Shown here: positions 24,759-50,577 of the stretch, one piece after another
Layout of the letters: every line of letters starts with the position of its first letter
How positions within the stretch are numbered: the stretch's first letter is position 1
Virus record (IMG/VR): IMGVR_UViG_3300010157_000061
Coordinates: 1-64,000 of that record
Length of the DNA stretch: 64,000 nt
DNA from: a virus
Strand: one strand, 5' to 3'
Translations under genes and position numbers: made by a program
Notes under the pieces: model-generated
What the model was told of the DNA's origin: nothing
Databases searched by the model: none
The model's input: only the letters and a program-made list of their open reading frames with translations

Positions 24759-25730
24759 ATGATAAAACTAATACCGTTATTAAAGCAAATACTCCTTGAA
24801 GGAGGTAATGTTTTTGGATCTACCGCACCTATTAAAAGAGAGGATATAGATCCAACATTAGATAAATTTTCAGCAGAATTAGGAAGAATCTTTCCTGCTA
24901 AGGCTAAGACCTTTACAACTTTCCAAACATTAGGATCAGTAGGTAAGAAACCACAATCAGGTGATATCGATCTAGGATACGACGTCAAGTATTTATTCCC
25001 AGACGGTGAAACACCTGACTTTAAAGGTTGGAATGTTGATAAAGCACAGTTCGAAGAGAGGGTGGCAGCGATTGCAAAACGTGCTAGAACAGCCACACCA
25101 GTCCAGAACCAATTAAGAGCTATGATCGAAATGATTGGTGCACAGATTAATGAAAAATCTGATATCATTCAAGTAGATTTAAAACAAGCCGGTGGTGGAG
25201 CGATCTTCTGTGAGACAGGTCAATACAACGACAAAGGTGAAGAATTAGGTAAAACAGTTCAAACCGACATTAATATCGGTAATCTAGACTGGTTAAAGTT
25301 TAGCTACTATTCATCTACCTACCAAGGTAATGTTAAAGGTCTACATAGAACACAGTTACTGGTTGCTTTATTTGGCTATAAAGGCTATACCTTTAGACAC
25401 GGTCAAGGAGTTATTAATAAAGATACTAGAGAGGTTGAGGCTAAGACACCTCAAGAAGCTATTACACTACTAAATAAACTCTACGGAACTAAAATAACTC
25501 CAGATATCTTAGAAGACTATCACAAGTTAATGACGTACCTAGGAAGTAGTTTAAGTACTCAAGACGTTAATGGAATACTAGATATCTATTTAAAGATCTT
25601 AGATTCAACTAGAGCCGATATACCAAGTGATATACAGGACTACTGGATTAAAAATCAAGACAGACTAGGTTTGAAAGGTAAGTTTTTACTTGATGACTCA
25701 GAATTAACCAAGTATAAAACAGAAGCATAA
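24759..25730 (+). CDS. Nucleotidyltransferase-like protein with MIKL targeting-like N-terminus
   Basis: 323 residues. The first 17 residues, MIKLIPLLKQILLEGGN, belong to the set of N-termini shared by seven proteins in this window and end in an LLE step suitable for gp21-type cleavage. TLGSVGKKPQSGDIDLGYDV (about residues 51-70) has the GS...GDIDL pattern of the pol-beta nucleotidyltransferase superfamily with the metal-binding Asp pair. Later segments (FGYKGYTFRHGQGVINKDT) are unassigned. Reaction and target are unknown. The next gene encodes a second enzyme of the same superfamily. It has its own promoter-like motif. Confidence 0.6.
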   Translation: MIKLIPLLKQILLEGGNVFGSTAPIKREDIDPTLDKFSAELGRIFPAKAKTFTTFQTLGSVGKKPQSGDIDLGYDVKYLFPDGETPDFKGWNVDKAQFEERVAAIAKRARTATPVQNQLRAMIEMIGAQINEKSDIIQVDLKQAGGGAIFCETGQYNDKGEELGKTVQTDINIGNLDWLKFSYYSSTYQGNVKGLHRTQLLVALFGYKGYTFRHGQGVINKDTREVEAKTPQEAITLLNKLYGTKITPDILEDYHKLMTYLGSSLSTQDVNGILDIYLKILDSTRADIPSDIQDYWIKNQDRLGLKGKFLLDDSELTKYKTEA

Positions 25731-25777
25731 TGTCAGGATCAGCAGGCGGTAATAGAATACCAAGAAAAGCAGTCTAA
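25730..25777 (+). other. In-frame 5' segment cut off by TAA
   Basis: ATG at 25730 overlaps the upstream stop at TAATG and encodes MSGSAGGNRIPRKAV before a TAA at 25775-25777. The same frame then stays open through the next gene. The 15 residues look like the natural beginning of the downstream nucleotidyltransferase, so the TAA is probably a nonsense change, a sequencing error or a recoded codon. Confidence 0.5.
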
Positions 25778-25822
25778 TCAACTAAAGATTCCTATATAAG
25801 AAAGGTCTTAAGTAAATTTCCT

Positions 25823-28297
25823 TTGTTTAAAGATGCTAAGATCTCAGGATCTTACAATACATCAAGTAAATCTGACTTCGGTGATATAGATTTGATTGTA
25901 ACTTTAGAAGGAGGTCAAGATAAAAAACAACTAAAACAGGATCTAGCAGCATTCTTTGCTAAGTTTCCTGATAACCTTATCGTACCTTTTAGAAGTGATA
26001 AGTACAGAGGTAAGAAATCATTGAGTTCAGGTGAGTTAGTAACCGTATTATACCCTATCGAAGGTATGCCAGGTGAATATATCCAGATTGATAACATGGT
26101 TTCAACATCAGAACAAGAATCTGACTTCAAAAAAGCTTTCTTAGACTATCCAGCCGAGATACAAGGCTTATTACTAGGCCTAACCAAGGTAGTATTACTG
26201 GAAGAAGACCCACAGGCGGTGTTTAAAAGACTAGGTATTAAAGATGTACCGCCTCTAGAGAAGGGTCAGGAGTATGAATTCAATCTTTCTGGTGCAGCTC
26301 TAACATTACGCATAGTAGATCTTTCACCTGATTTTAAAGAAACAGGTAGAAAAGAGGTGTGGAAAACTACAGATTGGAATACAGTTAAGAAATTATACGA
26401 TGGCTATAGAATAGATGGTACTTTTGAAGAGTTATTACAGGATATTAAACGTAAATGTAAGAACGAAAGATCAAAAAACAGGATTAAAGGTATCTTCAAA
26501 TCTATGGTATCGATTAAGAGTGGAGAAGTAGGTACAGCCAAAGGAGCTGGTAAACAAAAAGCTTTAGATTCAGTAGATAACCTACTAGAATTTATGACTA
26601 ATCTAGGTAGGTTAATAGGAGAAGAGGTAGTAAATCAACCAGGAATTTGTTTTTACCCAGGTGGATTCAAACCCCCACACAAAGGACACTTCGAAGTAGC
26701 TAAGGATATGGCATCTCGTAACTATATCACCGCGGTATATGTTATAATTTCAAAGAAAGAGAGGGATGGTATAACGGCAGAACAGAGTCTAAAAGTATGG
26801 CAAACATATCTTAAAGCAGAACCTAACCCTAAAATCTCTGTTAGCATTGCTAAATCAGCATCTCCAATCAGAGATATCTTCGATTATATAGCCGAACACC
26901 CCGAACAATCACCAATCTACATAGTTGGAGGTAAGGATGAAGTAGATGATCAAAATTACTTTGCATCACTGAAGAAAGCCTTCGGAGATAAGATCAAACC
27001 AGTACCGATGGAAGAGAAGTTCGGTAGAATCTCAGCCTCTTATGTAAGAAGACTATTAAGAGCAGGAGATCTAGAAGGTTTTAAAGAAGCTCTACCAGAT
27101 GCAACCTTAAATAAAGGGTATGCAGGCGATATATTCAAGATGTTAGCCTCTACTATAACGCAGACTGCTATCAAAGAGGGATTAGAATTAGATTCAGAGC
27201 AAGAAGGTATAGTGGAAGACATCGAGAAGTTTGTTAGATGGTGTTCTCCCTTGCTAGATTTAAAGCAAATCCCGGAGATAGAGTATATTACAGATCCTGA
27301 TTTCCCTGGGGAGATGCACAGCTTTGGAGGTTATGACCCCACCCATAAAAAGATTGCAACAGTGATTGTAAATCGTAATCTAGCCGACATATTAAGAACA
27401 CTAGCACACGAATTAGTACACCACTGTCAAAATGAGAAATACGGTATAACAGCCGAAGATGGTAAGACGGGATCTGATGTTGAAAATGAAGCAAATGCAG
27501 TAGCAGGGCAGATAATGAGAGAGTACGGTAAAAGAAATCCAGATATCTACACACAGATCATGATAAATGAATCAGTTACACCTGATGAAATAGAGAAAGT
27601 GGATGCATTTGCAGATAACATTCTAGCACCGGTAGATGTAGACCTAACTTCCAAGCACGTATTAGATAGGTTAACAGGAAGAGAATCGGATGTTACGTAT
27701 CAGCAGTTGATTAAGTTTTTTGAAAATTTATCCAAAAAGAAAAAAGAGTTTCTTGAGTTCTTTAATAGGTATTCTGAAATTGTAGCTACAGATAGACAAA
27801 GTAAGCTAAATATACCTTTCCTAAATCTGACTCATAAAGCGATTGCTAAGACGATTATGAGAAAGCCTAACTTCCTAACCCATACACCTCAGTTAACATT
27901 CGAAGATAAAGCAGATGCTAAATGCCCACCTGCCACTCAGAGCATACCGCTTAATTTAAAGAATCGTCAAAGTGCTATTGAAAAAGAACACTACGGACCA
28001 CTAAATCCAAATGAACCAAATATTAAATTCTGGAAGCAAAAAGCAGATATGTGGCAATTGGATTCAATACAAGAAGCTAAGAAATCATTATGTGGTAATT
28101 GTGCAGCCTTCGATCAAACAACTAAGACATTGGACTGTATTGCAAAGGGTATTGGAAACGATGAAGGATCCGAAGATCCATTTGATGTAATTAAAGCAGG
28201 TCAATTAGGTTATTGTAGATTTTTAAAATTCAAATGTGCTTCAGCTAGAACCTGCGATGCTTGGGTTGTTGGAGGACCACTAACCGATAAGAAATAA
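25823..28297 (+). CDS. Four-domain fusion: nucleotidyltransferase, NMNAT-like, HExxH, Cys-rich
   Basis: 824 residues from a TTG start; the natural start is probably the ATG at 25730, behind an in-frame TAA. Domains in order: nucleotidyltransferase (residues 1-130, GSYNTSS and GDIDLIV); adenylyl/cytidylyltransferase of the NMNAT type (about 275-420, YPGGFKPPHKGH as the HxGH-like motif and RISASYVRRLL as the ISSTxxR-like motif); zinc metalloprotease-like segment (LAHELVHHCQN near 530 with a later ENEANAVA Glu); and a C-terminal part with CGNCAAFD and CASARTCDAW cysteines, a pattern I know from marine phages. NAD-related or nucleotidylation activity is inferred from motifs. Confidence 0.65.
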   Translation: MFKDAKISGSYNTSSKSDFGDIDLIVTLEGGQDKKQLKQDLAAFFAKFPDNLIVPFRSDKYRGKKSLSSGELVTVLYPIEGMPGEYIQIDNMVSTSEQESDFKKAFLDYPAEIQGLLLGLTKVVLLEEDPQAVFKRLGIKDVPPLEKGQEYEFNLSGAALTLRIVDLSPDFKETGRKEVWKTTDWNTVKKLYDGYRIDGTFEELLQDIKRKCKNERSKNRIKGIFKSMVSIKSGEVGTAKGAGKQKALDSVDNLLEFMTNLGRLIGEEVVNQPGICFYPGGFKPPHKGHFEVAKDMASRNYITAVYVIISKKERDGITAEQSLKVWQTYLKAEPNPKISVSIAKSASPIRDIFDYIAEHPEQSPIYIVGGKDEVDDQNYFASLKKAFGDKIKPVPMEEKFGRISASYVRRLLRAGDLEGFKEALPDATLNKGYAGDIFKMLASTITQTAIKEGLELDSEQEGIVEDIEKFVRWCSPLLDLKQIPEIEYITDPDFPGEMHSFGGYDPTHKKIATVIVNRNLADILRTLAHELVHHCQNEKYGITAEDGKTGSDVENEANAVAGQIMREYGKRNPDIYTQIMINESVTPDEIEKVDAFADNILAPVDVDLTSKHVLDRLTGRESDVTYQQLIKFFENLSKKKKEFLEFFNRYSEIVATDRQSKLNIPFLNLTHKAIAKTIMRKPNFLTHTPQLTFEDKADAKCPPATQSIPLNLKNRQSAIEKEHYGPLNPNEPNIKFWKQKADMWQLDSIQEAKKSLCGNCAAFDQTTKTLDCIAKGIGNDEGSEDPFDVIKAGQLGYCRFLKFKCASARTCDAWVVGGPLTDKK

Positions 28298-31102: not shown

Positions 31103-31564
31103 ATGATTAAACTGACCAGTCTACTAAGAGAGATCTTAAACAAACCACTACCCTGGCAATTCAAAGGTGAGTTAGGCAGTGGTAAGGTCGTGTATAAATT
31201 TGAAGCAAAGACCGAAGATAAGACTCAAGAGTATATAGTGTACTTTGGGAAAGAAGGTGAAGGTATATACAATGTATCCTACATGGCTACAGGACATACC
31301 CCTCAGCAACTAACCGGCCAAGGTGCTTCTATCCAAGTACTGTCAACGGTAACCGATATTATAAAAGACTTCATAAGTAAATTCGGTGATAGAGTCGATA
31401 AACTAGTCATAGATGCTGCTAAGACAGAACAGGAAAGAGAGGCTGGAGTAGAAGATTCTAAACGATTCAGAGTCTATACAGCTATGATCGAAAGATTAGT
31501 TAATCCTAAAGAGTATAGTGTTGCAGTGACTGGAGATAATCAAATAACAATAACCAAGAAATAA
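31103..31564 (+). CDS. MIKL-type small protein 1
   Basis: 153 residues. MIKLTSLLREILNKP carries the shared N-terminal peptide with an LRE step at residues 8-10. The rest is an alpha/beta domain (TQEYIVYFGKEGEGIYNVSY, IIKDFISKFGDRVDKLVIDA) ending in a KEYSVAVTGDNQITITKK hairpin. No known family. Overlap with the next MIKL gene at TAATG indicates co-translation. The peptide suggests transport into the prohead, by analogy with T4 internal proteins. Confidence 0.6.
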   Translation: MIKLTSLLREILNKPLPWQFKGELGSGKVVYKFEAKTEDKTQEYIVYFGKEGEGIYNVSYMATGHTPQQLTGQGASIQVLSTVTDIIKDFISKFGDRVDKLVIDAAKTEQEREAGVEDSKRFRVYTAMIERLVNPKEYSVAVTGDNQITITKK

Positions 31565-31890
31565 TGATTAAGCTAACCGATATACTAAACGAAGCAAAGA
31601 AACAAGACGATAATTTTGAAGACTTTGCTGAAACAAGAGGCAAGGGTGCAGAGAAGATAGCAGATACTGCTAAAGAGAAAGGTGGTCTTTCTATGCTAAC
31701 CTACAACCACTTTAAAGTTAAGCTACCTTACTATAAGAAAGCATCTGAAGGTAAGTTTGATATGGAGAAAGCCAAGAAAGAATACGAACAGGTATACAAG
31801 AGTATATCTTTAACTATGACTCAGATAGAGTTTCAAAAAGCAGTAGGTAGACTAGAAGTACTTGGAGAACTTATAATTAGAGACAAGTGA
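31564..31890 (+). CDS. MIKL-type small protein 2
   Basis: 108 residues. MIKLTDILNEAKK is the clearest LxE example in the set (LNE, then Ala), close in form to the T4 internal-protein leader as I recall it. The remainder is charged and helical (AETRGKGAEKIADTAKEKGG, YNHFKVKLPYYKKA). Its stop overlaps the GTG start of the next gene. No enzyme motif is seen. Confidence 0.6.
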   Translation: MIKLTDILNEAKKQDDNFEDFAETRGKGAEKIADTAKEKGGLSMLTYNHFKVKLPYYKKASEGKFDMEKAKKEYEQVYKSISLTMTQIEFQKAVGRLEVLGELIIRDK

Positions 31891-32252
31891 TTAAGTTAGT
31901 AAACATACTAAAAGATTTACTCGAAGAGAAGAAAGCAGATCGCTGTCTACGTATAGCACGTCAGAAGTACGACAAACCCTCTGCATATAGATCAGGAGCG
32001 ATAGTGAGATGTCGTAGAGGAGAGATATGGAAGGATTTAAAGGAAGATGAATCATTACACAAATGGTTTTCAAGAAAAGGTGGAACCGGTAAAGCAAAGG
32101 GTTGGGTGGATTGTAATACATGTAGGAATGGTAAATGTAAATCTTGCGGTAGAGAAAAAGGAGAGAAACGAGCTGAATATCCTTCCTGCCGACCTACACC
32201 TACTCAATGTAAACAACCAGGTAAAGGTAAAGACTGGGGTAAAACAAAATGA
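31887..32252 (+). CDS. MIKL-type small Cys-rich protein 3
   Basis: 121 residues from a GTG that gives the same MIKL start as its neighbours, which supports this start. MIKLVNILKDLLEE is followed by a basic domain: DRCLRIARQKYDKPSAYRSG, then KWFSRKGGTGKAKGWVDC, CKSCGRE and YPSCRPTPTQC. The second half matches a small Cys/Lys domain common in T4-like and other large phages (I believe DUF5872, unchecked). At least six cysteines suggest zinc binding and a nucleic-acid partner. Confidence 0.65.
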   Translation: MIKLVNILKDLLEEKKADRCLRIARQKYDKPSAYRSGAIVRCRRGEIWKDLKEDESLHKWFSRKGGTGKAKGWVDCNTCRNGKCKSCGREKGEKRAEYPSCRPTPTQCKQPGKGKDWGKTK

Positions 32253-32440
32253 TAAAATTACTAGACATACTAAAAGAAATAGAAGAAGGTATTGATGATC
32301 CTGTCAAATCAGGCATCTTAAAGAAGAGATTAGGTAAGTTATCTTGTAGTAGAGTCAGGTCAGCTAAAGCGGGTTTAAAAGATAAAGGAACACATTATGC
32401 TAAAGCTTTACAAAGATATCTAAACTACCACTGCCAATAA
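32249..32440 (+). CDS. MIKL-type small protein 4
   Basis: 63 residues, overlapping the previous gene at ATGA. After MIKLLDILKEIEEG (LKE step) there is only a short basic helical domain (VKSGILKKRLGKLSCSRVRS). If the leader is removed after Glu10, 53 strongly basic residues remain, the kind of small DNA-binding internal protein known in T4 heads. Confidence 0.6.
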   Translation: MIKLLDILKEIEEGIDDPVKSGILKKRLGKLSCSRVRSAKAGLKDKGTHYAKALQRYLNYHCQ

Positions 32441-32441
32441 C

Positions 32442-32450
32442 TATTTATTA
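32442..32450 (+). promoter_or_regulatory. TATTTATTA motif two bases before ATG
   Basis: The motif ends two bases from the start at 32453. The same two-base spacing recurs at 37787 and 44953. Confidence 0.4.
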
Positions 32451-32452
32451 AT

Positions 32453-32788
32453 ATGATAAAACTAGTAGACTTATTTAACGAAAGTAAAAACACCAATCTC
32501 TATGAACTAATAGGGAAATTGACTGCTAATACTACCAAGAGAACTTTAGGAGATATATTATCAGATATGAGAGCGATTATAGGAGTGACTATTGTTAGAG
32601 GAGAAGGTCATAGCAGTGACGTACCAACTAATAACCCTTCTTATACAGAAGAAATTAAGCTCAAAATAGACCCTTACCCATTTGCTTCTTTTGGTAAAGA
32701 TCAGGTAAGAGATATTATCAGTCAAATCAAACATATCGACGGTGTAACAACCTTTATACCAAATACAAACGCACGTAAAATCTCATAA
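32453..32788 (+). CDS. MIKL-type small protein 5
   Basis: 111 residues. MIKLVDLFNESKN has FNE in place of LxE. The body reads as an alpha/beta fold (TLGDILSDMRAIIGVTIVRG, EIKLKIDPYPF, VRDIISQIKHIDGVTTF), similar in rhythm to a ferredoxin-like fold. No family is recognised. It has its own promoter-like motif, unlike the four coupled genes before it. Confidence 0.6.
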   Translation: MIKLVDLFNESKNTNLYELIGKLTANTTKRTLGDILSDMRAIIGVTIVRGEGHSSDVPTNNPSYTEEIKLKIDPYPFASFGKDQVRDIISQIKHIDGVTTFIPNTNARKIS

Positions 32789-32803
32789 ATATTAACACAG
32801 ACC

Positions 32804-33097
32804 ATGATACAAAAGATAAGAGTTAACTTAAAAGAATGTGATGGATGCGATAGAGCAGCTCAAGATAGTCAAGACTGGACCAATGGTCACGACCATGAAG
32901 GAAGTATGGCTAAAGGTGAATTAAAGGATTTAATCCTAAACGCAGTATCTATTTATAAAATGCTAGGTACTAATGATCAACTTCCAGGTTGTACATCTGC
33001 CTATATCTCCTTAGCTTCAGATTATATACACTCAGTAAAAGAGTCTCTAAGCGGACAATTAGACCAAGTATTACCTGAAGAATTAACAGCAGAATAA
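32804..33097 (+). CDS. Hypothetical small protein
   Basis: 97 residues. The start MIQKIRVNLKECDGC carries a CDGC pair and an LKE step, so it may be a distant member of the leader-bearing set. The middle (DWTNGHDHEGSMAKGELKDL) has clustered His and Asp that could bind metal. The C-terminal half is a helical bundle (YISLASDYIHSVKESLSGQL). It is flanked closely by MIKL-type genes. Confidence 0.5.
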   Translation: MIQKIRVNLKECDGCDRAAQDSQDWTNGHDHEGSMAKGELKDLILNAVSIYKMLGTNDQLPGCTSAYISLASDYIHSVKESLSGQLDQVLPEELTAE

Positions 33098-33099
33098 TT

Positions 33100-33612
33100 A
33101 TGAAGCCAAATAAAATATTAAAATACCTCATCGAACAAGAAGTACGTAAGTACCTAAAAGAAGAGGAAGAGGCACCGGGCAAGATTGCACCGGTTCGTTC
33201 TTTTGAAGAAGATCCGATTAATTTTATTCTAGCTAAATATCCTTCTCTAGCACAAACACTTATCTACTTATTAACTGATGCGTATAAAGACTACGTTACA
33301 GGAATTTACATCGTAGCACCTAAACCAACTACGTTTAAAATCGTACTACATAATGGACAATTCTTTTACCTAGCTTTTCTAGGCAGAGCCTATGAAGCTA
33401 AGGTATTAGGTAAGAGATACTACCTACTAACAGTAGGAGAGAAACAGAGAGCAGTCCTAGCTATAGCAGGATTATTAGAACTAGGTGCACCTATCAATAC
33501 AAAAGGTCCTGAACAGGAGACACCAACAGAAGATACCGCAACCGCACCGCCACCAGCCGACCAAGAAGAAATACCGGCAAGTCAAAAAGAAGAAGAAAAA
33601 ACAGAATCTTAA
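33100..33612 (+). CDS. Hypothetical protein with acidic leader helix
   Basis: 170 residues. The N-terminus NKILKYLIEQEVRKYLKEEE is an amphipathic helix with LIE and LKE steps, comparable to but distinct from the MIKL peptide. Residues 45-130 form an alpha/beta core (YKDYVTGIYIVAPKPTTFKI, HNGQFFYLAFLGRAYEAK), and the last 40 residues are a Pro/Glu/Thr-rich tail that is probably disordered. It is followed immediately by the nuclease-like MIKL gene. Confidence 0.5.
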   Translation: MKPNKILKYLIEQEVRKYLKEEEEAPGKIAPVRSFEEDPINFILAKYPSLAQTLIYLLTDAYKDYVTGIYIVAPKPTTFKIVLHNGQFFYLAFLGRAYEAKVLGKRYYLLTVGEKQRAVLAIAGLLELGAPINTKGPEQETPTEDTATAPPPADQEEIPASQKEEEKTES

Positions 33613-34752
33613 ATGATCAAACTACTAGATATACTAAAAGAAGTGATGGTATTGAGGGAGGCGTATACTGACTTTCCAACATCTGCAGAAGAGATTGATA
33701 ATCCCGATACCAAACGACTATTTAACGCCATACAAAAATACCTATCTAGTAAACAGATTAGTATACCTGCCCCTATTGCTATAAATCCAGATAACCCTAA
33801 CGCGGTTAAGATCACAAGAAGCTTACAAAGGGACGATAAATTCGCAGACTACATCAACAAAGAACTAGGAGCAACTATTAGACCTGATGGTAAATTTAAA
33901 GTAGGTAATCTAACAGTTGCTTACGGAGAAGGATCTAGAGGAGGTAGAGGAGTGCACAGTAAAGGGTTAAAATTTGAACATGAATTAGTAAAAGATTTAG
34001 AAACTCTTTCAAAACAAGGCATCAATCAAGCCAATCAAGATGAATACCAATACCCAGACCTGATAATAGAGCTTACAAAAGAACTAAAATTAAAACCCGG
34101 CAATTTTACAGTTGAGTTAGTAGGAGAAAAAAATCAATCCCGTCCATTAAAATTTGAAAACGGAGGACCTGTAGTAGCATTTTCTGCTGGTTCTGCTGCT
34201 GAAACATTAGCAGATATCATAATTACAGTAGGATCTGAGAAATATTATCTATCAGCTAAATTCGGAACAGGAACTACATTCTTCAACTCCGGGGTAACTA
34301 AGATATTCCCTGCTAGTGAAATAAAAGCAGGGGAGATAAAAAATGCAGACGGTAAATCTTTACTAGAAACACTGGGGATAGATAATAAAACGTTCTGTAA
34401 AGTATTTAACGAGTATGGAGAATCAAATTTTGCACAGCAAAGCGGTCCTTCAGAAAAATACAATACTACAAAGCTACAAAATTTAATAAAATCCGGTATA
34501 GGAGAAGACTATTACTTAGTTAATGGAGGTTCAAAAAATGCAGGAGTATATAAAGTAGATAGTAGCTATGCTGACCAAGCTTCCGATATAACATCTGGCG
34601 TCAACGTTGTATACTATGGAGGTACAGGTGGAGCAGGTAAGCGTGTAGATGTAGTAGTAGAATCAGCACTATACAAATTTAAGATTAATATTAGGAATAA
34701 AGCAGGTGGGGTGTACCCCTCTCATATAATGTGTGATTATATAAAAAAGTAG
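33613..34752 (+). CDS. MIKL-type protein with restriction-endonuclease-like core
   Basis: 379 residues. MIKLLDILKEVMVLREA gives the shared leader with LKE and LRE steps. The core has the order expected for a PD-(D/E)xK-type fold: HSKGLKFEHELVKDLETL with an early Glu, then AETLADIIITVGSEKYYLSA, where D-I-I-I-T-V leads to the strand YYLSAKFG with a candidate catalytic Lys. NKTFCKVFNEYGES and the C-terminal strands are unassigned. If real, this would be a nuclease packaged in the head and delivered with phage DNA. Nuclease assignment is by pattern and tentative. Confidence 0.5.
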   Translation: MIKLLDILKEVMVLREAYTDFPTSAEEIDNPDTKRLFNAIQKYLSSKQISIPAPIAINPDNPNAVKITRSLQRDDKFADYINKELGATIRPDGKFKVGNLTVAYGEGSRGGRGVHSKGLKFEHELVKDLETLSKQGINQANQDEYQYPDLIIELTKELKLKPGNFTVELVGEKNQSRPLKFENGGPVVAFSAGSAAETLADIIITVGSEKYYLSAKFGTGTTFFNSGVTKIFPASEIKAGEIKNADGKSLLETLGIDNKTFCKVFNEYGESNFAQQSGPSEKYNTTKLQNLIKSGIGEDYYLVNGGSKNAGVYKVDSSYADQASDITSGVNVVYYGGTGGAGKRVDVVVESALYKFKINIRNKAGGVYPSHIMCDYIKK

Positions 34753-35111: not shown

Positions 35112-36281
35112 ATGGCAAAACAACAACTAATCAAGGAAGCATTTAAGTTACAACAAATAGCTGGAATTAGACCACTCTATGAATTCGAAAGTAGACTAGT
35201 AAGAGAAGATCTAGGATCATCAACTCATCAAGGTAAAAAAATCACCTGGGACGACTACGAAGTAGAAGAAAAAGGCATTGATGGTGGAGCTACTGATTCA
35301 GTAACACTAACCGGTATTGATGATGAAGGTAACAAGTATGATGCAATGGGAGAGATGGTTCACGGAGAATTAGACCCAGATACTATTACAGATATTCAGT
35401 TACTAGGCGGTATTCAAGAAGGTATGGATAGTGCAGATGAACTCGTAGATATACTATTAGGGCATGTAAAAGATCCAGATCAAGCTGAAAAATATGCTAG
35501 TATGGATCCAGAAATGTGGCCAGAATGGTTAGAAGCTAGTCTAAATAGAGATCCTAAGTATACTGAATTTGCAATGGAGAAGATCCAAGAAGCAGATGAC
35601 GATGACGATGCAGAAGATATGGAAGATGATTGGAATAAAGCAGACAGTGACGACGATTATGAACAAGAGCCAACTAAGAAAGATATCCAAGTAGGTGATA
35701 AGATGGTAGGAGTGTTAGGTGGAAGCCAAAGCAGACTACAGACTCTAATGAACCAAAAAGATGCAATCTTAGCTAAATTCAAATCCGGTGAAATTTCTAT
35801 CGACCAATATAAACAAGAGATTGGTAATATACCTCAACAAATCAAGAATCTACAAGCTACTATTGAAAAACAGATGAGTGGTGGAGAGGAAGGAGAAGAT
35901 GAGATGTTAAATGAATCTGAAATTCACTATTTTTATAAAACAGACAGATACGGTTCTAGAGTATGTCATGCAAAAGACGATGAAGGTAATGTTTGGAAAG
36001 TAGATAATAGTAAGTGTAAGAGAGTAGGAACATATAATAACCAACGCGATGAAGTAAAGAAAGAGAGCGTTTTAGGAAAATATATTCGTCAAGAAGTGGT
36101 TAGAACTTTAAAAGAAAACGAAGGCGTTGAAGGAAAACAAAAACATGACTACCCTAAAGATAGATTTAAAGACGACGAAGAATACGAAAAATTCTTAGAC
36201 GATACTTTAAAAAAATTAATGGATAAAATTACTAATGACCCTAAACTATTAAATGTATTCAAGAGATTGAAAGACAAATAA
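35112..36281 (+). CDS. Acidic LAGI-type core/cargo protein
   Basis: 389 residues, strongly acidic. The N-terminus IKEAFKLQQIAGIRPLYEFE shares the QQ(L/I)AGI peptide found at the start of two later genes and at the C-terminal end of gp22. Residues about 150-190 are an Asp/Glu run, and 205-255 a Gln-rich helix (LMNQKDAILAKFKSGEISID). The end includes LGKYIRQEVVRTLKENEG. Acidity and LxE-like steps (MLNESE, LKENE) resemble prohead core proteins. It may be an internal scaffold part or a packaged protein. Confidence 0.55.
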   Translation: MAKQQLIKEAFKLQQIAGIRPLYEFESRLVREDLGSSTHQGKKITWDDYEVEEKGIDGGATDSVTLTGIDDEGNKYDAMGEMVHGELDPDTITDIQLLGGIQEGMDSADELVDILLGHVKDPDQAEKYASMDPEMWPEWLEASLNRDPKYTEFAMEKIQEADDDDDAEDMEDDWNKADSDDDYEQEPTKKDIQVGDKMVGVLGGSQSRLQTLMNQKDAILAKFKSGEISIDQYKQEIGNIPQQIKNLQATIEKQMSGGEEGEDEMLNESEIHYFYKTDRYGSRVCHAKDDEGNVWKVDNSKCKRVGTYNNQRDEVKKESVLGKYIRQEVVRTLKENEGVEGKQKHDYPKDRFKDDEEYEKFLDDTLKKLMDKITNDPKLLNVFKRLKDK

Positions 36282-37038: not shown

Positions 37039-37635
37039 ATGAAGAGACAAATTAACGAAGTAGTTAGAATGAGACGCCTGGCCGGTCTAATTACAGAAGC
37101 TGAAGAACAGCAAGAGCTAGAAGCAGCAGGGTCAAAACTACCTAAAATAGCTAAGATCGAAAAGAGTAGTAAGCCTGGAATCTTTCATAGAGACGGAATA
37201 CTCTACAGCATCACCTTAGATAATGGTGACAAGGTCGAAGCAACCGATAGAACTCTATACAGTATCTTCGGAGATGATCCTTCAAACCCACAAGTATTTG
37301 TTGGTCAGGAATGGGATCAAGCCCCTTATAACGGAGATAAGCAAAACTTAAAAGAAGGTCCTGCTGTACAATTAGTAGTAAAAGCAGTACAAGCAGCATT
37401 AGCTAAAGGAAGCACAGTTGAAGTAAACGGTGAAGAAGTAATTAGTGTAGTACCTTTAGCAGGTCGTTTTAAGACATCTAATGGTGGAATGATTAAAATC
37501 GGAGATGTGGAAAATGTTGAGATTGATGGAGAACCCTTAGACTTAGAGATGCCAGACATAGATCAATCATCTCCTAACTTTAAATACACACCAACCGATC
37601 CAGGTGACTCTATAACAGGTTATCATGGAGATTAA
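37039..37635 (+). CDS. LAGI-type protein 1
   Basis: 198 residues. The leader MKRQINEVVRMRRLAGLITE has RMRRLAGL and an ITE step, related to the gp22 C-terminus YRMQQLAGI. The body is beta-rich and acidic (GILYSITLDNGDKVEATDR, GSTVEVNGEEVISVVPLAG) and ends in a Pro/Asp-rich tail. No enzyme motif. The gene lies between the two copies of the 131-base repeat, and a second LAGI-type gene follows copy 2, so the repeat plus LAGI gene may have been duplicated as a unit. Confidence 0.55.
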   Translation: MKRQINEVVRMRRLAGLITEAEEQQELEAAGSKLPKIAKIEKSSKPGIFHRDGILYSITLDNGDKVEATDRTLYSIFGDDPSNPQVFVGQEWDQAPYNGDKQNLKEGPAVQLVVKAVQAALAKGSTVEVNGEEVISVVPLAGRFKTSNGGMIKIGDVENVEIDGEPLDLEMPDIDQSSPNFKYTPTDPGDSITGYHGD

Positions 37636-37797: not shown

Positions 37798-38325
37798 ATG
37801 AACGAACTAAAAAGAATGCAGCAATTAGCTGGAATACTGAAAGAGAGTACTGGACTAGGAAGCAGTATGAGCTGGCTTAAAAGACTAACTCCGGAAATAG
37901 AAAAAAGCATAGACCGCTTAAAACAAAATTACCCTGACTATACAATTAAAATCACTGATAACAGTACTTGGAGAAGAGATAGACCGGACCTTAAAGGAAC
38001 TTATACATTATCTGTAGACGGACCTGTAATAACACCCGAGTTAAAGGTTGATATAGGTAGAATAGTTGATATGTCCAGGCTACAAGAAGGATTCCAAGGA
38101 GATAATGATGATCAAGATGATGGAATGAGTGGATTTAGAGGAGGAGCATTAGATAGATCAACTCCTAATGAACCTTCAATAGATAAGTCTAAACTAGGAT
38201 GGCAATCCTATCGTCTACTAGATAGATATATTACAAAGATGACTCAAGAACAGAGATTTAGACTGTATCAAACTATAGCTCAATTTCTTACTAAACAGGG
38301 TATAAAGAATCCAGATGAAGACTAA
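37798..38325 (+). CDS. LAGI-type protein 2
   Basis: 175 residues. MNELKRMQQLAGILKESTG carries the same RMQQLAGI string as the end of gp22, followed by an LKE step. An alpha/beta part follows (PEIEKSIDRLKQNYPDYTIK, GTYTLSVDGPVITPELKVDI), then an acidic Gly/Asp linker and a helical end (YRLLDRYITKMTQEQRFRLY). Beyond the leader it does not clearly match the other LAGI proteins. A strong terminator follows. Confidence 0.55.
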   Translation: MNELKRMQQLAGILKESTGLGSSMSWLKRLTPEIEKSIDRLKQNYPDYTIKITDNSTWRRDRPDLKGTYTLSVDGPVITPELKVDIGRIVDMSRLQEGFQGDNDDQDDGMSGFRGGALDRSTPNEPSIDKSKLGWQSYRLLDRYITKMTQEQRFRLYQTIAQFLTKQGIKNPDED

Positions 38326-39919: not shown

Positions 39920-39928
39920 GACTTAAGT

Positions 39929-40255
39929 ATGATACAGTTTAAATCAAACAATAAATATAGAGTACAAACACCTAGCGGATTTAAAGATTTCTCAGGAATG
40001 AGAAAGACTACAAAATCTAAGGTAGTAGAGATTACGTTATCTAACGGTAAATACTTGGAAGTATCAGAAGAACACAGGTTTTTAGGTATTGAAAACGTTG
40101 AAATACTAGCTAAAGATTTAATTGAAGGGATATGCCTAACAAAAAAGCTTAGTGTTACAAAGGTTAGTATTGTTGAAAAAGAAACATTTCTATATGATCT
40201 AACAGATGTAGGAGATGACAGCTACTATCTTACAGACGATATAGTATCACATAAT
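39929..40255 (+). other. C-terminal half of split intein (109 codons)
   Basis: It starts MIQFKSNNKYRVQTPSGF, contains a block-B-like EVSEEHRFLG, and ends with YYLTDDIVSHN before Cys+1 of the extein (CDFMTSG). Terminal His-Asn and Cys+1 are the expected splice residues. No homing endonuclease domain fits in the 145 residues total. Confidence 0.85.
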
Positions 40256-41128: not shown

Positions 41129-43063
41129 ATGGCAGAAAATAATTTATTTAGTAGTCTTAAGAGACTCTTTTCCACTGATGTAATCATTCGTAACATTGGC
41201 GGTAATGAGATCAAGGTAATGGATACAGACCGTATTCAAACCAACGGTGTATTACAGACAAATGCACTCATCGATAGGTTTAATAGGGTGTATACCACTT
41301 CAAACTCTTACGCCTACAACCTAAATACAACACAGAACTACCAAGCTATGCGTATTCAGCTCTATGCCGATTACGAAGCTATGGACACAGATGCTATCAT
41401 TGCATCAGCTCTAGATATCATCTCAGATGAATGTACTCTAAAGAATGAAGCCCAAGAGGTCTTACAGATTAGATCCTCAGATGAAAACGTTCAAAAGATA
41501 CTATACAATCTATTCTACGATGTACTTAACATAGAATTCAATCTATGGTCGTGGATAAGAAATATGACTAAATTTGGTGATTTCTACCTAAAATTAGAGA
41601 TTGCAGAAAAGGTAGGTGTATATAACGTAATACCTTTCTCAGCCTACACCATAGTAAGAGAAGAGGGTACAGATTTAAGAAACCCTTCTTATGTAAGATT
41701 CAAGTACGATCCCACCGCAGTATCATCTGGTGCTAGTGGATATGTGGGAGCTTACGCTAACCTATTAGGTCAAACAGACTCAATGTACTTTGAGAACTAT
41801 GAAATGGCACACTTTAGACTATTAGGAGACGTTAACTACTTACCGTATGGTAGATCCTACTTAGAACCAGGTAGAAAGATATTTAAACAAATGGTTTTAA
41901 TGGAGGATGCGATGATGATACATCGTATAGTACGTGCCCCGGATAAGAGAGCTTACTTTGTTAACGTAGGTGCGATACCTCCTAATGAGGTTGAGACTTA
42001 TATGCAGAGAATGATCTCTAAAATGAAGAAGATACCGTATATCGATCCACAAACCGGTCAATATAACCTAAAGTATAACATGCAGAACTTACTAGAAGAT
42101 TACTTTATTCCAGTAAGAGGTAATGATACTGCAACCCGTATCGAGACTGTACCTGGACTGCAGTATAACGGTATCGAAGACGTACAATATTTAAGAGATA
42201 AGCTATTTGCTGCTCTAAAAATACCTAAAGCATTTATGGGTTATGAGAAAGATCTAACCGGTAAAGCTACTCTAGCAGCAGAAGATATTCGTTTTGCTAG
42301 AACCATCGAACGTATACAACGTATTGTACTATCCGAATTAACTAAGATAGCATTAGTACACCTATACACACAAGGGTATAGAGATGAGACGATGGTAAAC
42401 TTTGAATTAAACCTAACCACACCGTCAATCATCTACGACCAAGAAAGGATTGCATTGATGCAAGAAAAAGTAGATCTAGCAACACAGATGATGGAGAGTA
42501 ATCTATTCCCAACTGATTGGATCTATGATAAGATCTTCCAATTAAGCGATGATCAATTAGATGATGTTAAAGCTCAGGTATTAGAAGATAAGAAACGTAA
42601 GTTTAGATACGATCAGATTGAAGCTGAGGGTAATGATCCTCTAGAATCAGGTCAAGCCTTTGGTACACCGCATCAAATCGCTAGCTTATACGGTGGTAAC
42701 GCCAATTATACAGCAGCAGCAGAGGTACCGGTAGGTTATAATGAAAAGAATCCTTTAGAACCAACAAAAGTACCGGGAAGACCTCAAGAAAAGAATTCAT
42801 TCATTGGTACCGCTAACGATCCTCTAGGTAGAGATAGAATGGGTACATACGATCTGAAAGCAAAACCTGCCGGAGGTGAAGATGGAGCTATGAGAGTTAA
42901 ATACCAGGGTGGTTCAGCACTATCATTAGAGGGTATACATACTAAGGTAGTTTATAATAATTTGAAGTCAAGCCTTGATCAGATAGGTCTTAACCGAAAA
43001 GTTACTTTATTCGAAGAACCAACTCTTTTAGACGAAGCCAATATAATAGAGGAGATTCAATAA
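41129..43063 (+). CDS. 20: Portal protein gp20
   Basis: 644 residues (T4 gp20: 524). Family landmarks are IIASALDIISDECTLKNEAQ, DFYLKLEIAEKVGVYNV, PYGRSYLEPGRKIFKQM with EDAMMIHRIVRAPDKRAYFV, and LPKAF-type KIPKAFMGYEKDLTGKAT. The portal forms the 12-fold ring at the head vertex, starts prohead assembly and docks TerL. The C-terminal 120 residues (GTANDPLGRDRMGTYDLKAK onward) extend beyond T4 gp20 and end with acidic LFEEPTLLDEANIIEEIQ, which has LxE-like steps. Confidence 0.92.
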   Translation: MAENNLFSSLKRLFSTDVIIRNIGGNEIKVMDTDRIQTNGVLQTNALIDRFNRVYTTSNSYAYNLNTTQNYQAMRIQLYADYEAMDTDAIIASALDIISDECTLKNEAQEVLQIRSSDENVQKILYNLFYDVLNIEFNLWSWIRNMTKFGDFYLKLEIAEKVGVYNVIPFSAYTIVREEGTDLRNPSYVRFKYDPTAVSSGASGYVGAYANLLGQTDSMYFENYEMAHFRLLGDVNYLPYGRSYLEPGRKIFKQMVLMEDAMMIHRIVRAPDKRAYFVNVGAIPPNEVETYMQRMISKMKKIPYIDPQTGQYNLKYNMQNLLEDYFIPVRGNDTATRIETVPGLQYNGIEDVQYLRDKLFAALKIPKAFMGYEKDLTGKATLAAEDIRFARTIERIQRIVLSELTKIALVHLYTQGYRDETMVNFELNLTTPSIIYDQERIALMQEKVDLATQMMESNLFPTDWIYDKIFQLSDDQLDDVKAQVLEDKKRKFRYDQIEAEGNDPLESGQAFGTPHQIASLYGGNANYTAAAEVPVGYNEKNPLEPTKVPGRPQEKNSFIGTANDPLGRDRMGTYDLKAKPAGGEDGAMRVKYQGGSALSLEGIHTKVVYNNLKSSLDQIGLNRKVTLFEEPTLLDEANIIEEIQ

Positions 43064-44508: not shown

Positions 44509-44814
44509 ATGTCAGACAATTTTGACCTAAGGAAGTTTATATCTGAAAACAGAGTAGGCCCTTACATTAGAACCGAAGGTAACGATCTACCACCAGCACC
44601 ATCTGATGAAGAAACAGCCGCCAACCAAGTAACTGAGACTTCTTTAGAAGCTATGGAGAGAATGGATGGATTAGCACCGATCGATTCTGTTAAACGATTA
44701 ATCGCAGCAGCAGGAAAGATTATACGTGACCTAAAAGAAGAAGGCTTTGATGAAGAAGATATCTACGAATATATTATCGAGAGAATTAAATTGTTAGACG
44801 ATCAAAATTACTAA
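44509..44814 (+). CDS. Small acidic core-like protein
   Basis: 101 residues, acidic. DLRKFISENRVGP near the start contains an ISE step resembling a gp21 cleavage site. The end (IDSVKRLIAAAGKIIRDLKE, then DEEDIYEYIIERIKLL) is helical. The size, charge and position between portal and gp21 match the small prohead core proteins (T4 gp67/gp68 position), although no sequence match is claimed. Confidence 0.55.
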   Translation: MSDNFDLRKFISENRVGPYIRTEGNDLPPAPSDEETAANQVTETSLEAMERMDGLAPIDSVKRLIAAAGKIIRDLKEEGFDEEDIYEYIIERIKLLDDQNY

Positions 44815-44963: not shown

Positions 44964-46799
44964 ATGAAATCAATAGTACAACAATACCGTGATCTAAACG
45001 AAGGTAAGATGTCGAAAGCTAACTTTATGACTAACGTTAGACGTCAATTCCCCGATTGGATCTCATCTGTAAATAGTTACCAAGATGCTATAAGCATTTT
45101 AAAGAGTAAGAGAATCCTGAGTGAGGAGTTAGGATCTGGAAGTGAGATGACTGTTAGTTCGGCGATAGAACATATCTTTGACGGTGATTTTGATGGTAAC
45201 CCACTAAAACTAATAAAAGCTAAAGAGTTGGTTAGTACATCAAATCATCCTGATAAAGCAGTTACTCTACATATGATAGAGAAGAAACTAGAAGATGCTT
45301 TAGATGCTGAGATGAAAGGTCAAATGGACCATGATAAAGCACAGTGGGATATGGAGATGAATGAAGATGAAAGTGGAAAGCAAAAAGAATTTGCTGCACT
45401 AGCACCACCTAGAAATAAGATTACTTATGCCGATAAGATTGCAGGTGCGAAATTGAAGAAAGAAGAAGAAGTATCGATGGAGGGTAAGAAACCATTCTAC
45501 CTAGTATCTGATAGCGGAGAGATTGTAGATAGTACAATGGCTGAAGATGAAACTGAAGCTAGACAGTACTTTGAAAATGAATACGAAGGTATCGGTAGTA
45601 GCATGACAATTATACATACTAATAACCCAGACGAAATTGGAGATGTATATGCTGAAGATAGTTTAAATGAAATTAGAAAAAAGAAACCCTCTACAGGTCT
45701 ATCTCAAAAGAAAAAATCAGCTATAGTTAAAAAAGCTAAAGCAGGTGGAGATATAGGTAAGAAAGGTAAAGGCTTTGAAAAAATAGAGAAGACAGCAGAA
45801 AAGAAATATGGTTCAAAAGAGGCTGGAGAAAAAGTTGCTGCAGCTGCGATGTGGAAATCACAAGCTAAAAAAGCTACAGTAAAAGAAGCTAAGGAAGAGA
45901 GTGAAGGCTACTACAAACACGTAACAGGAAAGGACGAATACTCTGTTTTCGATGAAATCGATAGAGTTAATCCTTACGAATTTAAAAGAGGTGTTAATAT
46001 AGAGATGGGAATGCAATACAAACCAATTCCTAAATACTTCACACCTGAATTCAATCCTGAAACACTTGCTAAGGCTACCAAAAAGGTATTAAAGAATCTT
46101 GAAAAAGATCCTGCATACTATACAAATATGATTTCAGCTGAGTTTGAAAAGAAATCAGGCTTACTTCAACATCCAAAAGAACTAAAAGTAGGTCCGGACG
46201 GAAGAGCTAAAATACCTGGATTTACAGATGCTAAATCTAATACAGAGACTAATCAAAGTAAAAAAGAGAGAGCTAAAGGTGGACCAGAGGGCGTAAAAGA
46301 GATGAAGCCATCAAAGAAATCGATGGGTGGAATAAAAACTATGAAGTCTAATGATAAACTACCTAAAGGTGTTGAATTGATGAAAGAATCTTTAAACGAA
46401 GGTGGTGATTATACATTTAACGGGCACTTTAAAACAGGTGAATTAGCTAAACTAAAACAGCAAATACCGGATGCTGAGATTGATACAGATACAGAAGAAG
46501 GGCAATCAGTTAAAACAACTGTAATGTCTAAGAAGTATAACGAAAAGACGATCCAACAAGCTGTTAATAATGTCTTAGGTATGGGTAAATCAAATGAATT
46601 CCCTATCAAAGGTCAGATGATGGAAGATAAAAAAGCTAAACAGTTAAAAAAGATCAAAGAGACTGTAGCTAAGAAGATTAAAGAAGATTTATATAAGAAC
46701 ACCAAATCAGGTAATGTACAGTCTTTCAATCCAGCAGATCCAGCAGATCAAAAGACAATAAGAGACCCTAAGTTTAACCAAGTATTTAAAAAAGCATAA
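44964..46799 (+). CDS. Large Lys/Glu-rich prohead core-like protein
   Basis: 611 residues. The N-terminus IVQQYRDLNEGKMSKANFMT has an LNE step. Residues about 240-310 contain a basic block, KKKSAIVKKAKAGGDIGKKG then EKKYGSKEAGEKVAAAAMW, a motif I have seen in many marine T4-like head-region proteins. Other parts are acidic. The C-terminus has an alpha/beta unit (TGELAKLKQQIPDAEIDTDT, KKYNEKTIQQAVNNVLGMG). It shares TAATG with the protease gene, so it is probably made with the core. It may be scaffold, DNA-binding internal protein, or both. Confidence 0.6.
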   Translation: MKSIVQQYRDLNEGKMSKANFMTNVRRQFPDWISSVNSYQDAISILKSKRILSEELGSGSEMTVSSAIEHIFDGDFDGNPLKLIKAKELVSTSNHPDKAVTLHMIEKKLEDALDAEMKGQMDHDKAQWDMEMNEDESGKQKEFAALAPPRNKITYADKIAGAKLKKEEEVSMEGKKPFYLVSDSGEIVDSTMAEDETEARQYFENEYEGIGSSMTIIHTNNPDEIGDVYAEDSLNEIRKKKPSTGLSQKKKSAIVKKAKAGGDIGKKGKGFEKIEKTAEKKYGSKEAGEKVAAAAMWKSQAKKATVKEAKEESEGYYKHVTGKDEYSVFDEIDRVNPYEFKRGVNIEMGMQYKPIPKYFTPEFNPETLAKATKKVLKNLEKDPAYYTNMISAEFEKKSGLLQHPKELKVGPDGRAKIPGFTDAKSNTETNQSKKERAKGGPEGVKEMKPSKKSMGGIKTMKSNDKLPKGVELMKESLNEGGDYTFNGHFKTGELAKLKQQIPDAEIDTDTEEGQSVKTTVMSKKYNEKTIQQAVNNVLGMGKSNEFPIKGQMMEDKKAKQLKKIKETVAKKIKEDLYKNTKSGNVQSFNPADPADQKTIRDPKFNQVFKKA

Positions 46800-47422
46800 T
46801 GAGTAAACAAGTCTTAATAGAATACCTAACTTTTCAACCTCAACCCACTCAATTAAATGAAGCAAGGTTTAATCCAAGCAAGAATTTAATTGTATCTGGA
46901 AAGATACAGTCTGAGGGTAAACCTAATGCCAATAAGAGAGTCTATGGACCTTCTTTGAGAAGAGAGGTAGCTAGCTATATATCAGGACCGGTAGCCGAGA
47001 AGAGAGCTTTAGGAGAGTTAGATCACCCTGAAACAGGTATCATCAATCTTAAGAACGTATGTCATAATATGACTAGGTTATGGTGGGAGGGTGATGACTT
47101 ATATGGAGAATTTGAAATCCTAGCAACACCATCGGGTAATATCTTAAAAGAATTATTTATGAACAACATCAATGTTGGTGTAAGTTCTAGAGCGATGGGA
47201 TCCGTTACTCCACTAGGAGAAGGCCTGGTACAGGTAGAGGATGACTTAGAATTAATATGTTGGGATTTTGTATCAACACCTTCAACCTATGGAGCATTTG
47301 TTAAACCGGTAGGAGGATTAAACGAAGGATATAACCCGGTATTTGAATCACCGTATAGAAAAGCCAATCAGATAATAGGAGAGTTGATCTGTACTCAAAC
47401 AGGTATCTGCTGTCTAAAATAA
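46799..47422 (+). CDS. 21: Prohead core protease gp21
   Basis: 207 residues (T4 gp21: 212). It is a U9/herpes-assemblin-type serine protease. His76 lies in GELDHPETGIINL and the Ser in NVGVSSRAMGS (129-130), with the strand VYGPSLRREVASYI before them. T4 gp21 cuts scaffold, capsid and internal proteins after (L/I)xE when assembly is complete and then destroys itself. An LNE step at residues 19-21 could be its own processing site. A strong terminator follows, isolating it from gp22. Confidence 0.9.
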   Translation: MSKQVLIEYLTFQPQPTQLNEARFNPSKNLIVSGKIQSEGKPNANKRVYGPSLRREVASYISGPVAEKRALGELDHPETGIINLKNVCHNMTRLWWEGDDLYGEFEILATPSGNILKELFMNNINVGVSSRAMGSVTPLGEGLVQVEDDLELICWDFVSTPSTYGAFVKPVGGLNEGYNPVFESPYRKANQIIGELICTQTGICCLK

Positions 47423-48876: not shown

Positions 48877-50577
48877 ATGGCAAACACAATTCAATCACTG
48901 TTAGAGTCGGCGAACCCGTACCAATCAGTGCAATCAGATGCCGAAAGACTAAGCAGAAAGTGGGCTAAATCAGGCTTACTTGAAGGTCTAGACGGATATC
49001 ATAGAAAGAACATGTCTATGATGCTTGAAAACCAAGCAAAACAATTAGTAGTTGAATCTTCACTTACAGGTGGCGGTACAACTTCAGGTGCTAACTTTAC
49101 TACAGGTACTGGTGAGCAATGGGCTGGAGTAGCTTTACCGTTAGTTCGTAAGATCTTCGGTCAAATCTCTTCAAAAGAGTTCGTTTCAGTTCAACCAATG
49201 AACTTACCTGCTGGTCTAGTATTCTACTTAGATTTCCAATATGGAACTAACGGTGTACAACCTTTCCAAACTGGTTCAGCTTCTGGATCTTTATTCGGTC
49301 AGCAATCAATCCAAGGTGATTCTACATTTGGTAACGCTGCTGCACAAGGTTTATACGGTGCTGGTAGATTCGGATACTCAATCAATCAATTCTCTGCTTC
49401 AACTAACATCTCAGGTAGTGGTACTGCAGGTAACTACGTAGCTTCTGCTTCATTCTCTGAAGTTAACTACAGTGCTGCTTATTCTGCATCATTTGCAGCA
49501 GGTGAGATTAAGAAATTAGTTGTTACTAATGCTAGTACTTTACTTTCAAGCTTTGACGCTAATAACGTACGTGCTTTCGTTGTAACTTCAGGTTCAACTG
49601 TAACTACAGCTACTAACATCCAAGAGTTAACAACTACTAACGGTACAACAATTAACTTCTTTGTTACCGCTTCATCAGCAAATATTGCTACTTCAGGTTC
49701 TTACACAATTTACTTTGAAAAAGCAACTGGATTTGCTACACGTGGTGATTTTGAAGATCAACCAGCTTCAGAAAACTTCTCTGTACCAAATGCTCAATCA
49801 GCAACTACAATCTCTATACCAGAGGTTAACGTTCAAATGAGATCAGAAGCTATTGCAGCTAAGACTCGTAAGTTGAAAGCACAATGGACTCCAGAATTTG
49901 CACAAGACTTGAATGCTTACCATTCATTAGATGCGGAAGCTGAATTAACTTCTATGTTATCAGAGTATATCTCTTTAGAGATTGACTTAGAGATCTTAGA
50001 TATGTTAATTGAGAACGTTCCAACTTCTAATACAACTGCTTGGTCAGCTCAGGTTGGTAACCAATTAAACGCTACAGGTACTGCTTTCACAAGTAATACA
50101 GCAGGTGTTTACTACACACAAATGACTTGGTTCCAAACTTTAGGTATCAAATTACAAAAGATATCTAACTTAATCCACCAAAGAACTTTAAGAGGTGGTG
50201 CTAACTTTATGGTTGTTTCTCCAACTGTAGCTACAATCTTAGAATCTATTCCAGGATTTGCAGCTGATACAGACGGTGCAGCAGATACAATGAAGTATGC
50301 ATTCGGTGTACAAAAAGTAGGTCAATTAAATAGCCGTTACAAAGTATATAAGAACCCTTATATGATTGAGAACACTATCTTAATGGGCTTCAGAGGTAAT
50401 CAATTCTTAGAGTGTGGTGCGGTTTATGCCCCTTACATTCCATTAATCATGACTCCATTAGTGTACGATCCGAACACATTTACCCCAAGAAAAGGGATTA
50501 TGACAAGATATGCTAAGAAAATGATCAGACCAGAATACTACGGTAAGGTTTGGGTAGCAGATCTTCAAGTAGTTTAA
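48877..50577 (+). CDS. 23: Major capsid protein gp23
   Basis: 566 residues (T4 gp23: 521). The gp23 pattern is clear: an N-terminal arm, then FGQISSKEFVSVQPMNLPAG with VFYLDFQYGTNG, and later GANFMVVSPTVATILESIPG and FMGYRG-type ILMGFRGNQFLECG. In T4 the first 65 residues are removed after LTE; here QLVVE60-SSLTGG is the matching place. Residues 140-290 are a Ser/Thr/Gly-rich insert. The leader is pure A-rich (cccaaattaaaaaa), and a terminator follows directly. Confidence 0.95.
   Translation: MANTIQSLLESANPYQSVQSDAERLSRKWAKSGLLEGLDGYHRKNMSMMLENQAKQLVVESSLTGGGTTSGANFTTGTGEQWAGVALPLVRKIFGQISSKEFVSVQPMNLPAGLVFYLDFQYGTNGVQPFQTGSASGSLFGQQSIQGDSTFGNAAAQGLYGAGRFGYSINQFSASTNISGSGTAGNYVASASFSEVNYSAAYSASFAAGEIKKLVVTNASTLLSSFDANNVRAFVVTSGSTVTTATNIQELTTTNGTTINFFVTASSANIATSGSYTIYFEKATGFATRGDFEDQPASENFSVPNAQSATTISIPEVNVQMRSEAIAAKTRKLKAQWTPEFAQDLNAYHSLDAEAELTSMLSEYISLEIDLEILDMLIENVPTSNTTAWSAQVGNQLNATGTAFTSNTAGVYYTQMTWFQTLGIKLQKISNLIHQRTLRGGANFMVVSPTVATILESIPGFAADTDGAADTMKYAFGVQKVGQLNSRYKVYKNPYMIENTILMGFRGNQFLECGAVYAPYIPLIMTPLVYDPNTFTPRKGIMTRYAKKMIRPEYYGKVWVADLQVV

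Follow-up and report, generated by a model that had tools for sequence, protein, structure and literature searches.

The head-injected proteins of a phage are normally not known without proteomics. Here, we describe a window of 64 kb, which is part of the 67.7 kb virus record IMGVR_UViG_3300010157_000061 and in which 68 genes were counted. Seven of its genes, all on the + strand and named below by their start positions (24759, 31103, 31564, 31887, 32249, 32453 and 33613), encode proteins that begin with the tetrapeptide MIKL and share a short leader of the form MIKLxDILxE, followed by bodies unrelated to each other. This leader most probably is a capsid-targeting propeptide of the kind known from phage T4, and its presence can be used to flag the proteins which phages of this type probably inject into bacteria.

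Seven genes with a common leader

Five of the seven leaders have a glutamate at residue 10: MIKLTSLLRE (31103..31132), MIKLTDILNE (31564..31593), MIKLLDILKE (32249..32278), MIKLVDLFNE (32453..32482), in which the step is F8-N9-E10, and MIKLLDILKEVMVLRE (33613..33660), which runs on to a conserved boundary at E16-A17. The other two are MIKLVNILKDLLEE (31887..31928), which has a GTG start codon instead of ATG, an aspartate at residue 10 and its (L/I/F)xE step at residues 13/14, and MIKLIPLLKQILLE (24759..24800), which has a glutamine at residue 10 and its step at residue 14, with a cut predicted after E14 and before GGNVF. These two are probably cut at residue 14 rather than 10. When the window was scanned with ATGATHAARYTN, seven matches were found on the + strand and none on the − strand; they comprise six of the seven genes and a six-codon chance ORF at 28925 (MIKLIL and a stop), the gene at 31887 being missed because of its GTG start. 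The probability of a MIKL start is about 0.0018 per gene, so that about 0.12 would be expected in 68 genes where seven are seen (P about 4e-11).

An initial annotation of the window, made from the letters alone, had claimed seven MIKL proteins, an (L/I/F)xE step within 14 residues in most of them, complete divergence after the peptide and differing codons within it. The ORFs are found at all seven positions, the step is present in every one of them, and by BLAST the bodies are unrelated; the codon differences, which argue against recent DNA copies, could also be quantified, with isoleucine 7, nearly always ATA, as the one exception. The annotation had further placed the peptide in a run at 31103-34752. 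It does lie there, but it is not limited to that run, as it also occurs at 24759 and in related genomes.

The leader in related viruses

The annotation had also proposed a search for the peptide in related genomes, and this search recovered it on many cargo families. The related set comprises 232 viral loci (2.87 Mb), designated by L-numbers, of which L022 is Flavobacterium phage immuto and L023 is Mel-JY01. MIKL is the most frequent start tetrapeptide in these loci, occurring in 184 distinct genes, all on the late-gene strand, and grouping by the sequence after the tag gives 46 BLAST-level cargo families; one further protein, of Mel-JY01 (L023 15385), is signal-peptide-like and counts as a chance case. 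Weighted by family, the profile reads M I K L x D(74%) [IL](93%) L(82%) [KN] E(93%), where L4 is fixed by the search itself, and the information content is 3.3 bits at E10 and then falls to 1.0 and 0.5. Identity between families is likewise confined to the leader: 70% over residues 1-10, 8% (0.079) over residues 11-20 and 6% over residues 21-30. When each cargo family is represented by one gene, the codons at I2, K3, L4 and E10 are identical as often as genome codon usage predicts. Synonymous codons are thus randomised at these positions, which means that the peptide, not the DNA, is what is kept. Separately, Ile7 is ATA in 46 of 48 genes of an unbiased set, and the isoleucine of [DN]IL elsewhere is ATA in 266 of 636 cases.

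Independently of gene neighbourhood, a DNA pattern for MIKLxD(h)LNE was found in at least 119 stretches of IMG/VR, whereas a permuted peptide of identical composition gave 3. Among the matches listed (80 stretches), 88 of the 91 located ones stand at the start of an ORF of 40 aa or more, and these ORFs fall into 48 families; the first set together with the IMG/VR matches listed gives 83 BLAST-level cargo families. Since BLAST separates distant relatives, 46-83 is an upper bound on the number of families, the lower bound being 29-30. Single-linkage clustering of all bodies had fused 948 proteins (864 in another run) into one family, and families were therefore recounted within the tagged proteins only. 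On 20 long contigs, a 30-nt leader pattern had 37 matches, confined to one strand per contig, and the reversed control had none; a 12-base pattern for MIKL only, tried on whole contigs, was too loose, as its reversed control also matched, and it was replaced by the 30-base pattern. In a large set of bacterial and archaeal genomes the 30-base pattern occurs in only 16 stretches, mostly in one recurring protein and with a few phage-like contigs; seven of the 16 encode the same DLANSRIKDEIFDW-type protein, in which the match is presumably an internal methionine of arginyl-tRNA synthetase.

The boundary between leader and body

The behaviour of the boundary on homologous bodies is the strongest added evidence for capsid targeting. 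In the DUF5872-like family of 31887, 45 homologues with a conserved body start carry 45 different N-terminal extensions, ranging from MENLNE to MTRLEKLINEVLSEEKKKR and MQDLHSNLIKKVLLEK, and in 44 of the 45 an [LIVMF]xE step lies 0-6 residues ahead of the body start. At 24759 the junction is MIKLIPLLKQILLE followed by GGNVF; L011 has MISLIKILKTIITE before GGNVF on a homologous body, and three homologues (L199, L200 and L202) are leaderless, starting directly with M-GGNVF. E16 of 33613 is invariant in an alignment of 14 sequences whose N-termini differ, and E16-A17 marks the junction of the body with either a MIKL-type leader or a leader of about 40 residues of the YKFPKGYPDMNN type. Homologues of 31564 bear MKLLQLLRE, MRLLELLRE, MIRLLQLLTE or MTKLLDILKE; the 32249 homologue in L097 has an unrelated extension, MEMKNTEFANLIQELAAEVLAE, on the same body; and among 32453 homologues, those in L197, L206 and L207 have leaders of another class (class B, see below), and that in L204 starts inside the body. 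In AlphaFold models of 24759 and 33613, the leader ends have pLDDT below 50 and adjoin folded bodies. Swapped extensions that meet the body at one (L/I/V/M/F)xE boundary are explained directly by a leader that is detachable and adjoins the body at a protease site; a shared fold or common ancestry of whole proteins does not explain this pattern.

Other leader types

The extensions that replace the MIKL leader fall in part into recurring classes. Rough patterns applied to the related loci found class B, MKKSxLKxIIKEE, on 27 body clusters, class C, RMQxLAGIxxE, on 31 and class D, NFDLKKFLxE, on 16, and the cargo of Flavobacterium phage immuto bears related leaders. The window itself has, on the + strand, a leader-like N-terminus of another type, MKPNKILKYLIEQEVRKYLKEE (33100..33165), a class C-like leader, MAKQQLIKEAFKLQQIAGIRPLYE (35112..35183), two class C leaders, RMRRLAGLITE (37039..37098) and MNELKRMQQLAGILKE (37798..37845), and a class D leader, MSDNFDLRKFISE (44509..44547), on a gene between those for portal and protease. 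An N-terminal block of about 40 residues (YKFPKGYPDMNNxxDxxxLE) in L009, L016, L151, L199 and others is a possible fifth type; the bodies of the proteins sharing it are largely different but retain the D and K residues of a putative nuclease site. As far as the compared sequences go, such genes carry several leader types, among them the MIKL tag, which is exchanged between cargoes and sometimes absent, and by analogy classes B, C and D would also target proteins to the head.

A wider scheme is conceivable, although we would put it below even odds: the interchangeable leaders (MIKLxDILxE, MKKSxLKxIIKEE, RMQxLAGIxxE, NFDLKKFLxE and the YKFPKGYPDMNN type of about 40 residues), all with gp21-like ends, might address dozens of swappable effectors to the prohead core at distinct docking sites or at distinct stages, and a single virion would then deliver ten or more different proteins. 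Such a multi-address system, if true, would resemble the effector set of a secretion system, but carried in the phage head.

The cargo bodies

The bodies of the seven proteins, all on the + strand, are diverse. That of 24759 (24801..25727) has a GS..SGDIDL motif and is a candidate DNA-polymerase-beta-like nucleotidyltransferase: G59, S60, G68, D69 and D71 are invariant in five homologues, and the best Foldseek matches of its AlphaFold model (pLDDT 74, below 50 in residues 1-25) are to pol beta (E about 2e-3, TM about 0.3, probability 0.99). That of 33613 (33661..34749) belongs to the phrog_8438 family (E=2e-63) and is possibly a PD-(D/E)XK-like nuclease, with D201 and K216 invariant or nearly so among homologues and weak results in a fold search, whose top rows are Hjc resolvases (E=0.23). 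The body of 31103 (31133..31561) is weakly DUF6934-like (PF22028, E=1.9e-4, below the cut-off), and that of 31887 (31929..32249) is DUF5872-like and rich in cysteine and lysine (PF19197, E=5.2e-5, below the cut-off). The body of 31564 (31594..31887) belongs to a family without assigned function with 23 related ORFs in the loci, that of 32249 (32279..32437) is small and basic, and that of 32453 (32483..32785) has no assigned function. Next to the first of these genes, at 25731-25823, the 25823 ORF, which has nucleotidyltransferase-like, cytidyltransferase-like and metalloprotease-like features, has an in-frame stop near its N-terminus; copies in L106 and immuto are intact, and the stop is a mutation or a sequencing error.

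By tentative assignment, tagged cargo in the relatives includes, above the Pfam cut-off, zeta-toxin-like kinases (PF06414) and 5'-nucleotidase, and also gamma-glutamyl cyclotransferase and weak matches to ART-PolyVal and PBECR3. Domain types of this cargo have been discussed as phage-injected effectors (PMC5512222), and the zeta-toxin-like kinases and the weak ART-PolyVal and PBECR3 matches tentatively fit such a role. By eye, two further leader-bearing proteins, in immuto (L022 18367-18806) and in L259 (404), are protein-kinase-like, with no Pfam match.

Head genes and genome setting

The window encodes on its + strand a portal protein (gp20; 41129..43063; phrog_213, E=2.2e-60), a prohead protease of the S77 family (gp21; 46799..47422; PF03420, E=4.9e-20; phrog_207, E=1.7e-42), which is the presumed leader-cutting enzyme and bears out the gp21 reported by the initial annotation, and a major capsid protein (gp23; 48877..50577; phrog_138, E=6e-67). 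The latter has an E10 of its own (SLLE) and a candidate maturation site at VVE60-S. Among the isolates of the phage collection, Flavobacterium phage immuto is the nearest by capsid protein (57.6% identity), and the two have a common gene order: primase, exonuclease, variable block, terminase large subunit (TerL), portal, protease and capsid protein.

The TerL of the window is spread over two ORFs at 39068-41101, which have features of a split intein: a short fragment of about 36 aa, CIWGDSSVTVQCKETGEVKILSLEQLYAEMQECDYL, closes the N part, and the C part begins with MIQFKSNNKYRVQTPSGFKDFSG and ends VSHN/C. Both halves align with immuto TerL, and the PF14890 match is weak. The arrangement resembles the atypically split AceL-TerL intein. 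A GIY-YIG/NUMOD3 homing-endonuclease-like ORF (38469-39059) lies immediately upstream of the split gene.

The heptamer TATTTAT occurs at 34 sites on the + strand of the window, for example at 24746, 32442, 41111, 44953, 47499, 59556 and 62121, versus 7 on the − strand. It lies 11-30 bases upstream of the start in 466 of 2657 genes, versus 159 for its reverse complement, and precedes genes for portal, core, sheath and tube proteins in addition to leader genes, which makes it a candidate late-promoter element.

A proposed model of head loading

We regard it as likely, with a probability of roughly 85%, that MIKLxDILxE is a T4-type capsid-targeting propeptide that is removed by gp21, the body then staying in the head to be ejected with the DNA; packaging, cleavage, core binding and injection are all inferred here from sequence. 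An outline of the proposed process is as follows: the first ten residues (more in three of the seven proteins) would form a short amphipathic helix, which would bind the prohead core by way of its hydrophobic residues 4 and 7 and thereby bring about incorporation of the protein into the prohead. A protease of the gp21 type would then cut after the glutamate of the (L/I/F)xE step. The freed body would remain among the DNA in the head and leave with it into the next host. The leader-bearing set as a whole is best read as a large, exchangeable head cargo, some of it apparently enzyme-like.

Several points weigh against this model. Two of the seven proteins lack E at residue 10, and some homologues have no leader, which suggests that some cargo can do without head loading. 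Among the tagged proteins are some of metabolic appearance (5'-nucleotidase, gamma-glutamyl cyclotransferase). The match to T4 lies in register and short sequence and does not amount to homology that can be aligned with statistical support. Of the contigs longer than 20 kb that were found by the tag, many of them fragments, gp21 is present in 22 of 43 (and gp23 in 18) versus 9 of 36 in the control, a comparison that is weak because the control start pattern, MNELKDI, meets part of the leader register. No virion proteome of Flavobacterium phage immuto was found in the open-access literature.

The alternative that survives best shares the first steps with this model. The leader may send the proteins to the prohead and be cut by gp21, the bodies being for the most part components of the core or scaffold, which remain in the head or leave it at maturation, not injected effectors. 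That gp21 of T4 also digests core proteins (PMC9026906) would agree with this, as would the class B and class D leaders on small genes between portal, protease and major capsid protein in immuto and the window. The cargo is, however, unusually diverse and partly enzyme-like (kinases, nucleotidase, a nucleotidyltransferase motif), and it is patchy, exchangeable and at times leaderless, unlike core scaffold genes, so that we consider this alternative rather unlikely.

It is less probable still that the peptide is a docking tag for some other phage or host complex, such as replication or transcription machinery, unrelated to the head. Leader genes adjoin primase and exonuclease as well as TerL and portal, which would agree with such a tag; against it stand the exact T4 targeting and processing register, a gp21 protease in the genome and an (L/I/V/M/F)xE that persists at the boundary though the rest of the extension changes.

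A feature of the RNA or DNA, namely an element for translation initiation or a stretch of DNA copied recently, is very improbable as the source of the shared start. Ile7 is ATA in 108 of 111 MIKL-leader genes versus 49 of 111 for Ile2, which indicates a codon-level constraint at that position. The amino acids are nevertheless kept where the codons of I2, K3, L4 and E10 are randomised, the 36 nt upstream have an identity of only 0.32-0.37 between families, and the nucleotide identity of the coding sequence drops from 0.74 to 0.32 past codon 10; the codon data rule this out as the main explanation. Finally, secretion signal peptides or a chance likeness of phage N-termini, of which the Mel-JY01 protein shows that single cases occur, are ruled out by statistics (3 permuted matches versus at least 119) and composition, no Sec-type hydrophobic core of at least 7 residues being found and residues 6 and 10 (Asp6, Glu10) being acidic in most families.

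If the tag works as proposed in the capsid-targeting model, head cargo could be predicted from ten residues of sequence across a large, uncultured group of T4-like phages. The tag would also expose dozens of candidate first-minute effectors (kinases, nuclease-like and nucleotidyltransferase-like proteins, and many without known function) and provide a short peptide for loading proteins into the heads of these phages.

Comparison with known packaging signals

The likeness to T4 capsid targeting noted by the initial annotation holds when the T4 sequences themselves (NC_000866) are compared: IPII and IPIII begin with MKTYQEFIAE before A, Alt with MELITELFDE before D and gp24 with MAKINELLRE before S. 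Experiments in T4 have assigned targeting to residues 4 and 7 and control of processing to residues 8 and 10, with L/I-x-E as the gp21 site (PMC9026906), and these are the positions conserved in the MIKL tag. As with IPI-IPIII and Alt, an N-terminal propeptide of 10-20 residues, hydrophobic at 4, 7 and 8, mostly acidic at 6 and with Glu at 10, is common to unrelated mature parts; it ends at a gp21 site, (L/I)-x-E, in all seven proteins if F is allowed for 32453, and an S77 gp21 is encoded in the same genome together with a T4-like portal and capsid protein. The differences are that the peptide is MIKLxDILxE here and MKTYQEFIAE in T4, that seven carriers are found here and 46-83 BLAST-level families in relatives against four packaged proteins in T4, and that here leaders of several types replace one another on a given cargo and packaging is deduced from sequence. 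To our knowledge, only four packaged proteins of T4 bear a capsid-targeting sequence. T4 gp24 (MAKINELLRE), gp22 (MLKEQLIAE) and gp21 (MNEPQLLIE) have the same register or the same terminal motif, but their roles are those of shell, scaffold and protease, and they do not form a variable cargo.

In phage P1, an N-terminal signal of DarB suffices to package a reporter and serves anti-restriction proteins (PMC9024508). It resembles the MIKL tag by description only, being longer (the first 30 residues are sufficient) and having one named cargo. In the giant phages SPN3US and phiKZ, proteins that are packaged and later ejected bear N-terminal propeptides, and cleavage follows xxE (PMC7411985, PMC9026906), but the SPN3US propeptides have 111-130 residues and the motif A/S-x-E, and the accessible text describes no common short peptide. 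No earlier account of a MIKLxDILxE tag was found in the open-access literature, few subscription papers or preprints being covered. The principle is already known from T4; the peptide, the scale of its cargo and the use of several exchangeable leader types are, as far as we have found, new.

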